NCBI GenBank assembly: GCA_902524105.1
Contig: CABZCD010000006.1
Location: 1 to 36,053 of the forward strand
From: an uncultured Pelagibacteraceae bacterium
Lineage (GTDB): Bacteria; Pseudomonadota; Alphaproteobacteria; Pelagibacterales; Pelagibacteraceae
DNA length: 36,053 bases
Direction of reading: 5' to 3'
The notes beneath the pieces are model-generated. The model worked only from the letters and a program-made list of their open reading frames with translations, was not told where the DNA came from and did not search any database. Of the stretch, positions 32,654-34,105 are shown piece by piece; position 1 is the stretch's first letter; each line of letters starts with the position of its first letter. A program made the position numbers and the translations under genes.

Positions 32654-32730
32654 CGCGGGGTGGAGCAGTCTGGTAGCTCGTCAGGCTCATAACCTGAAGG
32701 TCGAAGGTTCAAATCCTTCCCCCGCAACCA
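32654..32730 (+). tRNA. Initiator tRNA-fMet (anticodon CAU), CCA encoded
   Basis: A complete 77-nt cloverleaf with anticodon loop CTCATAA. The initiator features are clear: C1 opposite A72 (unpaired) in an otherwise G-C acceptor stem, and CCA encoded at the 3' end. T arm is GAAGG-TTCAAAT-CCTTC. Its last 51 nt are repeated at 34055-34105, marking it as an integration target. Confidence 0.97.
32680..32730 (+). repeat. Left attachment-type repeat (3' part of tRNA-fMet)
   Basis: These 51 nt (anticodon arm to CCA) recur at 34055-34105 with 49 identities. The two differences (32704 A against T, 32718 T against A) are the two partners of T-stem pair 50-64, so base pairing is retained in both copies. 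This is what a tRNA-targeting integration leaves: one copy completes the tRNA, the other marks the far end. Confidence 0.85.
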
Positions 32731-32776
32731 ACAATACCAACACTTTTTTATTTTAAGATACGTAAAGAAAGTTTTC

Positions 32777-32799
32777 CTGACACACGCCTGACACAACGT
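32777..32799 (+). repeat. Left arm-type double repeat
   Basis: Two CTGACACA units start at 32777 and 32788, so they repeat every 11 bp, about one helix turn. The 23 bp match 33960-33982 in all but two adjacent positions and lie 46 nt inside the left tRNA repeat, in the same orientation as the right copy. Confidence 0.75.
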
Positions 32800-32808
32800 G
32801 AGGTGAAA

Positions 32809-32949
32809 TTAGTGAATAGTTTTGTCTTCGCTGCTGAGATCTTCAAGAAAATTATAAACATCTAATTCAACCCACTCGATTTCAGGGTCCTTGGGATCTT
32901 GTGTGATTGTTTTCTTTGTATATAAGATTTTTTCTTTTTCATCTGCCAT
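32809..32949 (-). CDS. Small acidic hypothetical protein (46 aa)
   Basis: An ATG-to-TAA frame of 46 codons reads MADEKEKILYTKKTITQD, continues with EIEWVELDVYNFLEDL and ends in KTIH. The composition is acidic and mixed, with aromatic residues and no poly-Lys/Asn runs, which is unusual for random frames in this A+T-rich DNA. No named family is recognised. It lies in the mini-island, with the membrane-protein gene 46 bp upstream on the same strand. No clear ribosome binding site precedes it, so the call is tentative; an antitoxin-like or phage-type small protein is possible. Confidence 0.5.
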   Translation of the reverse strand: MADEKEKILYTKKTITQDPKDPEIEWVELDVYNFLEDLSSEDKTIH

Positions 32950-32995
32950 ACTATATATATGGATATTAAATTAACTTTTTCAAGATATTAGCTGT

Positions 32996-33379
32996 TTAAC
33001 TTTTCTTATTCTTTAAATATCTTTTTATAAAATTGGGAATTTTTAAACCAACTTTAATTATACCTTCCTCATCATAATTGCTCGAAAGATTTGCAAAAAA
33101 AGCTATAACTAAAAATTGGGCTATAGCAGTTGTAGCCCCAAGTACAAAATAGATAGGTGTTCCAATCCACCAAGAAATATTAAGACTTTCTATGAAATCA
33201 TAAATCCACATAAGTGATCCAAGCCACATTCCAAAAGCTAACCAAGTTCCACAAACTAATAAAGAAGATAATAAATAACACATTAGAAAGTTTCTTCCTT
33301 TTTTTATACTTTCTTGCGCATTAAACCAAATTGGCAAAACTACCATAATTAAAAAAGCTATGCTAAATCCAAAATCCAT
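32996..33379 (-). CDS. Hypothetical three-helix membrane protein of the mini-island
   Basis: This 127-aa protein has three probable transmembrane helices, about 4-19, 31-58 and 70-96, the second rich in Trp and Gly (GTWLAFGMWLGSLMW). A basic cytoplasmic-looking tail ends KRYLKNKKS. No family is recognised. It is the middle gene of the island, 37 bp downstream of the nuclease-like gene on the same strand. Trp and Cys content differs from the Lys/Asn-rich core proteins around it, in keeping with a foreign origin. Confidence 0.7.
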   Translation of the reverse strand: MDFGFSIAFLIMVVLPIWFNAQESIKKGRNFLMCYLLSSLLVCGTWLAFGMWLGSLMWIYDFIESLNISWWIGTPIYFVLGATTAIAQFLVIAFFANLSSNYDEEGIIKVGLKIPNFIKRYLKNKKS

Positions 33380-33416
33380 AATTAACCCAGAACCACGATC
33401 GCTAAAAGTTTTTTCA

Positions 33417-33929
33417 TTATTTTTTGTAAATAACTTTAAATTCCTCGATTAGCTTTTTAGTTACCGAAATATTAAAATTATTCATCCTAGAATTATAACT
33501 TTTATTTTTCATGAAATCATCCCATGTAAGCTCGAGTATCATTTCAACACTGTATTCATCATTTAAAATCACAATCGATAAACAATCAAAAGTTTTTTTG
33601 TTGTTTTTAATTCCTTCTGGATCCCAAAACGATCCCGTTGTTCCATTAAAAGAGGAAACAGTTTTAATACTATATATTTTTCCATCTCTACTTAATGCAT
33701 CTACATTTTTAGTGGTTATTCCTGCTTTGGTTAGATTTGGCAGTTTTTTCTTTGCTACAAACTTACTTGAACCGATTTTATTATAAAATTGAATTGCATA
33801 ATATTCACCAAGTTCCCCGACTGTATTTTTTGTTCTTAGCACGCCTCGTCTTCTCAATTCTTGCACTGCCTGAGATGAGGGTGAAATAAGCTTTGCTAAC
33901 TCTTCAACAGAAAGGTTTTTCATTGACAC
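33417..33929 (-). CDS. Hypothetical protein with restriction-endonuclease-like (PD-(D/E)XK) fold features
   Basis: This 170-aa protein has a short helical N-terminus (about 5-30) with ELRRRGVLRTKNTVGELGEYYA (key residues R-R-R-G, E39, E42). NVDALSRDGKIYSIK follows at about 75-89. A helix carrying Glu, then D77 and a strand ending in K89, is the pattern of PD-(D/E)XK nucleases, except that the usual acidic residue before Lys is Ser (S87). It recalls DUF6998-type proteins, which share the RRRG-RT-N-GE-GEY beginning; that memory is not verified. Role could be a degenerate nuclease, DNA-binding or defence protein. First gene of the island's minus-strand set. Confidence 0.6.
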   Translation of the reverse strand: MSMKNLSVEELAKLISPSSQAVQELRRRGVLRTKNTVGELGEYYAIQFYNKIGSSKFVAKKKLPNLTKAGITTKNVDALSRDGKIYSIKTVSSFNGTTGSFWDPEGIKNNKKTFDCLSIVILNDEYSVEMILELTWDDFMKNKSYNSRMNNFNISVTKKLIEEFKVIYKK

Positions 33930-33959
33930 AATTTTCTCACTTTTTTTCTGCGATGTCTA

Positions 33960-33982
33960 CTGACACATCCCTGACACAACGT
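33960..33982 (+). repeat. Right arm-type double repeat
   Basis: The second copy of the 23-bp element, with CTGACACA units starting at 33960 and 33971. It lies 72 nt before the right tRNA repeat, so both arm elements are inside the island. Identity to 32777-32799 is 21 of 23. Confidence 0.75.
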
Positions 33983-34054
33983 TAAGTAAATCTAAAAATT
34001 TTATGTAGCTTTTTTGATGTGTCGTGATAATTTTATGGGCAGAAAGGTACGTAT

Positions 34055-34105
34055 GTCAGGCTCATAACCTGAAGGTCGTAGGTTCAAATCCTACCCCCGC
34101 AACCA
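34055..34105 (+). pseudogene. tRNA-fMet 3' fragment (right attachment-type repeat)
   Basis: The 51 nt from the anticodon stem to CCA repeat tRNA-fMet with one compensated pair change (34079 T with 34093 A). The preceding bases (about 34032-34054) keep only scattered similarity to the D arm (GGCAG and GGTA) and cannot form the acceptor stem, so no functional tRNA results. It is either the displaced 3' end after integration or a decayed full copy. Confidence 0.85.

Follow-up and report, generated by a model that had tools for sequence, protein, structure and literature searches.

We analyzed a 36,053-nucleotide stretch of Pelagibacteraceae DNA, here called the window, and found a precise insertion of a small element at its tRNA-fMet gene. 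We consider it probable that this insert is a non-autonomous integrative mini-element, upon which the tyrosine integrase of a satellite-like element acts in trans at the arm sites. Such a mini-element would have a small cargo operon, transcribed leftward from the right end, between two ends made up of a tRNA-fMet-derived att core plus arm sites. A satellite-like element at the same tRNA would supply the tyrosine integrase, which would recognize the arm sites of the mini-element in trans and recombine the element attP with the host attB inside the anticodon arm. The element would donate a replacement 3' half, with the tRNA remaining functional, and the 3' half of the host would be moved to the far end. 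Excision is likeliest to be performed by the satellite integrase in trans as well, and the elements may still be moving, insofar as this can be read from sequence.

Structure of the insert at tRNA-fMet

The last 51 nt of the tRNA-fMet gene (32680-32730) recur at 34055-34105, an offset of 1,375 bp, and re-measurement reproduced exactly what a preliminary description had reported of this repeat. As also stated there, the copies differ at just two sites, 32704/34079 (A/T) and 32718/34093 (T/A). When assigned by hand in standard tRNA numbering, these sites are positions 50 and 64, the partners of a single T-stem pair, which is A-U in the intact tRNA-fMet and U-A in the displaced copy. The chance that two random differences would be partners is about 0.8%, as calculated by hand from approximately 10 paired among the 1,275 position pairs in 51 nt. 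ARAGORN identified the intact tRNA at 32654-32730 and additionally called a 'tRNA-Met' at 34034-34105. The Rfam tRNA model scored the intact gene at 66.1 bits and the displaced copy at 31.0 bits, and in its alignment the acceptor pairs of the displaced copy are non-standard. Upstream of the displaced fragment, a weaker attP-like similarity (GGCAGAAAGGTACGTnn) continues for about 20 nt. The intact sequence reads as having a C1×A72 mismatch and A11:U24, which we take to identify the gene at 32654-32730 as the initiator tRNA. The target site had been considered notable as an essential gene; this point is weakened by the equivalent replacement that the 3' half receives and by the presence of this tRNA-fMet sequence in many IMG/VR viral contigs.

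The features of the region are listed below, with coordinates in the window.

32654-32730, plus strand: tRNA-fMet, a functional hybrid with its 5' part from the host and its 3' part (A-U) from the element, based on ARAGORN, Rfam and the relative G016
32680-32703, plus strand: attL core, the interval containing the crossover, from the start of copy identity to the first difference at 32704
32731-34054, no strand: mini-element insert, from the tRNA end to the displaced fragment, absent from G016
32731-32807, plus strand: conserved left end
32778-32784, plus strand: putative left arm site 1, TGACACA
32789-32795, plus strand: putative left arm site 2, TGACACA
32800-32807, plus strand: GAGGTGAA, a probable RBS-like relic where the G114 element has the RBS and start codon of int
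32809-32949, minus strand: small ORF, 46 aa
32996-33379, minus strand: cargo ORF, 127 aa, apparent membrane protein with no family found
33382-33417, minus strand: cargo leader relic that reads MKKLLAIVVLG and then stops; its DNA has 86-95% identity over 44 nt with intact leaders of other elements
33417-33929, minus strand: cargo ORF, 170 aa (ATG at 33923), BisI-like modification-dependent restriction endonuclease (PADLOC mREase_II)
33916-34054, plus strand: conserved right end
33924-33930, plus strand: putative outer right arm site, TGACACA, adjoining the cargo start codon on its upstream side
33961-33967, plus strand: putative right arm site, TGACACA
33972-33978, plus strand: putative right arm site, TGACACA
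34055-34105, plus strand: attR (U-A), formerly the 3' end of the host tRNA-fMet and now displaced; identical to the G016 tRNA

The attL core holds an inverted repeat, TCAGG-ctcataa-CCTGA, around a 7-bp spacer. No integrase ORF was found in the insert, and the two ORFs of more than 60 aa on the cargo strand are of neither the integrase nor the replication type that would mark a phage satellite. A search for a cargo promoter gave 6 sigma-70-like matches, compared to 6.5 in shuffled sequence, and thus no excess. Downstream of attR (34112-36053), the window contains a GNAT/FemAB-like gene (Acetyltransf_6) and two ORFs without a Pfam match, as does G016; these are possibly surface-polysaccharide genes.

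Origin of the two tRNA halves

The closest relative, G016, carries a precise empty site. It has a single intact tRNA-fMet, directly followed by the sequence that starts at 34106 in the window, and is 98% identical to the window over 440 bp (upstream region and tRNA) and 96% identical over 1,917 bp from 34055. The insertion at the tRNA 3' end, where a direct repeat makes the tRNA whole again, and the empty site in a close relative are what is expected of a tRNA-targeting island, and they support the integration proposed in the preliminary description. An old duplication of the tRNA, with unrelated DNA between the copies, would explain the repeat itself and nothing else. It is refuted by the uninterrupted gene of the 96-98% identical G016, an element-free relative that lacks the fragment; the sequence that separates the copies varies, and in other genomes this site holds unrelated inserts that have the same ends. 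We therefore give this explanation practically no credence.

The T-stem pair serves to trace each half of the tRNA. The intact tRNA of G016 carries U-A at 50-64 and is identical to 34055-34105 of the window across all 51 nt, like the displaced copy and not the working gene. The displaced copy is thus the original 3' end of the host, and the working tRNA ends in element sequence, which bears out the suggestion that one copy had been brought by an incoming element and assigns the A-U 3' half to it. Among 24 loci of the window's genus (g1), the letters at the pair were TA/TA in 21, CT/AG in two, GC/GT in one and AA/TT in none; one of these loci (G015) carries an element. Within g1, AA/TT was found only in the window, G397 and G308, each with an element left end. 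In genus g5, AA/TT was present in 18 of the 23 full tRNAs and TA/TA in the other five, and AA/TT predominated in g5 tRNAs without an element left end (13 of 16). On this comparison, the working tRNA has a foreign, g5-like 3' half, and that of the host is the displaced copy. Because identity begins at 32680 and the first diagnostic difference lies at 32704, the crossover is placed within 32680-32703, corresponding to the anticodon arm and variable loop.

The G151 locus (L086) shows another arrangement: the T-stem letters of its two tRNA copies misfit a simple crossover, and its displaced copy has an unpaired stem, the 3' strand of which is the same as in the intact gene.

A family of mini-elements at tRNA-fMet

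We identified 17 bounded elements of 538-3,297 bp with tRNA-fMet cores on both sides, in three Pelagibacteraceae genera, and detected no integrase in them. Their sizes are 1375 bp (window), 538 (G015), 1948 (G151), 1389 (G114), 2170 (G183), 2147 (G190), 844 (G179), 1288 (G133), 3297 (G128), 2452 (G447), 3055 (G195), 1878 (G308), 2622 (G115), 1635 (G155), 1015 and 2622 (G109), and 2999 (G171). The count leaves out G198 and G397 (one end, at a contig edge), both G180 fragments, the third G114 left end, G109 contig 10 (4,358 bp, boundary unclear), G174 (tRNA core not found) and the degraded G129, which was kept as counter-evidence. AG-343-K22 is the same element as G447 and forms one entry with it; G115 and the second G109 element, 94% identical (2,465/2,622), form two.

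Subterminal repeats (CTGACACAnnCCTGACACAAC) are present at both ends of the window insert, and gave no match in 100 shuffles of the window. The repeat pattern CTGACACANNCCTGACACAAC was found in 11 of 397 Pelagibacteraceae genomes, with no match to a reversed-pattern control in any listed genome. In a collection of 84,980 species it occurred in 12 contigs, 11 of them from Pelagibacteraceae and one from a Clostridium MAG without a tRNA core. Searches with the right end gave matches in 8/31 g5 genomes, 5/169 g1 genomes (one a mere 29-nt match) and 8/23 g6 genomes (several partial).

The elements have shared ends and variable cargo. In an all-against-all BLAST comparison, both ends were conserved in most element pairs and the cargo was mostly unrelated, the exceptions being 515 bp shared by G190 and G128 and 2.3 kb shared by G447 and G195. 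The ORFs of at least 100 aa run leftward from the right end in 31 of 32 cases, the sole exception being antisense. Five g5 elements (G133, G190, G179, G128 and G114) share the window's left end at 93-100% identity over 65-77 nt and its right end at 93-96% over 130-137 nt, whereas the upstream chromosome is 69-75% identical between the window and the genomes of these elements. The ends of G183 are 97% (left) and 89% (right) identical to the window's. In contrast, G015, from the window's own genus, is 73% identical in its chromosome and just 78% and 87% identical in its element ends. The similarity of the window ends to g5 elements, compared to a chromosomal identity of about 70%, indicates that the window element probably crossed between genera.

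Tandem arrays occur at single tRNA-fMet genes. In G114 (L087), a satellite-like element of 5,673 bp is followed by the 1,389-bp mini-element and then by another left end; in G109 (L313) there are at least three right ends. Positions 1460-1514 of the G128 element (L092) contain an internal right-end relic, as would result from fusion of two elements.

A potential concern is whether the mini-elements encode a recombinase of their own. We used four tyrosine-recombinase-type queries in a phmmer search of 629 frames from 25 element sequences, and the single match was the integrase of the G114 satellite. The Pfam scan covered only some cargo proteins, so a divergent recombinase in the mini-elements is possible. 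Fixed ends shared by elements without an integrase of their own suggest that the mini-elements probably depend for movement on integrases that belong to larger, satellite-like elements.

Repeats at the element ends

In ten elements, five repeats (TGACACA, GAACACA or TGACG) lie at exactly +47/+58 after the tRNA and -131/-94/-83 before the displaced fragment, and these offsets are kept across four different motif sequences. One or more repeats are missing or altered in G151, G015, G115 and G195, with G015 lacking the outer site; the left end is shorter in G447, G308 and G155 (offset 23 or 35), and G447 also lacks the outer site. The motif varies among elements (TGACACA, TGAACACA, TGACGC, TGCCGTA) and tends to agree between the two ends of one element. 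When left and right motifs were permuted, the observed score was reached by 4 of 720 arrangements for six arm types, the mismatched G129 among them, and by 1 of 120 for the five types that remain without it; the test is small and its arm-type representatives were hand-chosen. The first G129 element has mismatched left and right motifs, and the match in G155 is partial.

This tendency to agree between ends fits P and P' arms for an integrase of phage type, which would bind to the repeats. An att core and arm sites that are intact, with no recombinase, are also what characterizes H47-like and CIME-like islands, the arm function being putative here.

Candidate helper elements

Integrase-bearing elements with near-identical left motifs are found at the same site. 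The G114 satellite has genes for a tyrosine integrase (PF00589, E=2.4e-26), for a protein of AAA/primase-like type and for the small subunit of a terminase. Its left motif, at +47/+58 just before the RBS of int, is identical to the window's at 20 of 22 positions. A second candidate is the 9,737-bp IMG/VR contig IMGVR_UViG_3300025168_016823 (L175, also recorded as L117), the one relative recovered from viral data with the integrase query. Its 127-bp terminal repeat implies a 9,610-bp circle. L175 carries an integrase 76% identical to that of G114, a primase-like protein, a tRNA-fMet attP and TGACGC arms; its left motif is identical to that of the G171 mini-element at 21 of 22 positions, and by eye its MORN-repeat and 'DSRG' lipoprotein genes resemble mini-element cargo. 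Neither a terminase nor a capsid match was found among the nine L175 ORFs scanned.

Several findings weigh against a satellite integrase in trans, beside the mismatched or partial motifs of G129 and G155 and the missing outer sites of G015 and G447. The satellites are unlike the mini-elements in the spacer from arm to core, and the right arms of the G114 satellite are at -128/-116 rather than at -94/-83. An integrase with exactly the window's arm pair was not found. Four scans of viral contigs with exact arm, attP and right-end patterns gave no contigs, the window right end had no match in a phage collection, the small-terminase query had no relative in viral data, and packaging signals common to satellite and mini-element were not found by eye.

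Other integrases were considered and rejected. Relatives in G212, G149 and G120 (37-48% identical) lie away from tRNA-fMet. The window's own genome, 66.7% complete, has one phage-integrase-type match (G000:C8:17404-17943, L116; 317 aa), which by phmmer is unrelated to the G114 and L175 integrases and lacks the Pfam arm-binding domain; the gene after it is methyltransferase-like by eye.

Cargo genes

The 170-aa cargo protein of the window matches the PADLOC mREase_II model (E=2.3e-37), a family-level match to BisI; its PDB matches, to Eco15I (E=0.1) and NhoI (E=0.86) of the BisI family, are weak. Conserved E, D and K residues are present by eye, the K at +12 from the D, and S (in the G195 homologue, A) stands where the QxK motif has Q. 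In Eco15I, D69 and K81 have this spacing and a Q79A substitution abolished activity (PMC11347163, PMC4926085), which makes catalysis by the window protein uncertain. A single-sequence structure prediction for the 168-aa cargo was unusable (mean pLDDT 35.3). The protein is a probable virus-cutting enzyme, and may serve an anti-phage role.

Restriction-type cargo is often found among the mini-elements. PADLOC scans of some proteins from seven elements gave matches below 1e-3 in four of the seven: besides the window, these were G190 (type IV, 7.8e-5; Pfam Mrr_cat), G128 (PDC-M72B, 1.3e-12) and G171 (a type IIG enzyme, 3.2e-135, and a specificity subunit, 2.8e-41). Among the proteins scanned, the match in G179 was weak (0.02), and G195 and G115 gave none. 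Other cargo includes a trypsin-like protease (G133) and an endonuclease/exonuclease/phosphatase with a methyltransferase (G195).

Intact relatives of the MKKLLAIVVLG leader begin several cargo genes in other elements, and the leader may form the seam at which cargo is swapped. The cargo could be exchanged by homologous recombination between shared ends or leaders, with no need of a site-specific recombinase today. The shared ends, of 75 and 135 nt, would allow this; the window's leader relic suggests a swap at that seam, and the internal right end of G128 points the same way. However, homologous exchange explains neither the exact insertion into an empty tRNA, the chromosomes being about 70% identical between genera, nor the tandem arrays and end-matched arm motifs, and we regard it as very improbable in comparison to integration in trans.

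Displaced tRNA fragments in genus g2

In genus g2, a 45-nt 3' fragment of another CAU tRNA is displaced in six of the 36 genomes that have the full tRNA (L246-L248, L289-L291), with the copies 0.76-5.6 kb apart. Paired arm repeats are present at both ends in four of the six, being TTGGTACA in three; in G040 each end has a GGGACA/TGTGACA variant, and G046 and G043 have no such repeats. In the 5.6-kb G041 element, a 459-aa protein has an integrase arm-binding domain (PF13356) and no catalytic-domain match at E 0.01. Two near-identical 1.25-kb elements retain the N-terminal arm-binding part alone (84% over 82 aa), together with a glyoxalase-fold gene. This lone domain might act as a repressor, and the elements can illustrate how mini-elements could originate by internal deletion. 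This second family, apparently independent of that at tRNA-fMet, suggests that such cassettes may arise repeatedly in Pelagibacterales.

The 1.25-kb elements also bear on whether the mini-islands are decayed satellites or prophages that have lost integrase and mobility. Their residual integrase part agrees with decay, as do the RBS-like sequence retained at the window's left end and the degraded copies (G129, the third G114 end, and the attR of G183 and G308). Decay does not readily account for ends that stay 93-100% identical across genera when interiors differ, arm spacing that recurs despite motif change, open and co-oriented cargo ORFs, or tandem arrays. We consider decay unlikely, though less so than homologous exchange, and favor mini-elements served by a satellite integrase.

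Comparison with known systems

SAR11 are among the most abundant ocean bacteria, and how such streamlined cells gain defense genes is poorly known. A broader reading, on which we are evenly divided, is that these elements form a class of cassettes in SAR11, as yet without a name, that are addressed to a helper: the arm repeats would be an exchangeable address for the integrase of one satellite lineage, and single restriction or other genes would be shuttled between genera via the initiator tRNA. Cassettes of about 1-3 kb that require nothing beyond cargo, an att core and five arm sites would rank among the smallest known units of site-specific gene transfer. Their transfer would be traceable, as the T-stem pair alone reveals the source of a tRNA half. 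They would offer a testable case of satellites parasitized by smaller elements through arm-site identity, and their motifs would give a natural set of orthogonal integrase addresses.

Like the mini-elements, the phage satellites known as VEIMEs are small, integrated and marine. So are PICMI, in which defense genes are found (PMC10803314). The candidate helpers G114 and L175 are satellite-like in combining an integrase with a primase/AAA protein. The PICMI search required an integrase (PMC10803314), whereas integrase, primase and alpA were not detected in the SAR11 mini-elements. Tycheposons are, like the mini-elements, tRNA-anchored cargo islands of streamlined marine bacteria, and are described as having large cargo and a tyrosine recombinase; the window insert falls outside that class, being 1,375 bp with no recombinase detected. 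A size of 4-200 kb is given for them, with a Methylophilaceae case at tRNA-Met (PMC10872708), in contrast to 0.5-3.3 kb and no recombinase detected in the mini-elements. The window cargo is like the BisI family (PMC11347163, PMC4926085) in size, the mREase_II match, the E and D...K spacing as read by eye and the lack of an accompanying methyltransferase, and unlike it in having S (A in the G195 homologue) for the Q of QxK.

Movement in trans has precedents. MITEs and CALINs are hitchers that keep their recombination sites, have lost the enzyme and are moved by that of a relative; MITEs depend upon transposases and are usually gene-free, and CALINs depend upon an integron integrase and attC (PMC11389934). 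The SAR11 mini-elements instead have tRNA att cores and putative arm sites for phage-type integrases. The H47 island of E. coli has no integrase or excisionase, and its excision with functions of the host context in trans was demonstrated (PMC3191183). H47 is one microcin island, 12.6 kb in size, whose repeats are long and imperfect; the SAR11 mini-elements differ in forming a family of 0.5-3.3 kb with end-matched arms at tRNA-fMet. Our literature search, the coverage of which omits many journals, returned no report of such elements in SAR11. Excision in trans of an island without an integrase is thus a known principle from E. coli (PMC3191183), and the size, the family, the matching arms and the restriction cargo in SAR11 appear to be new within the searchable literature.
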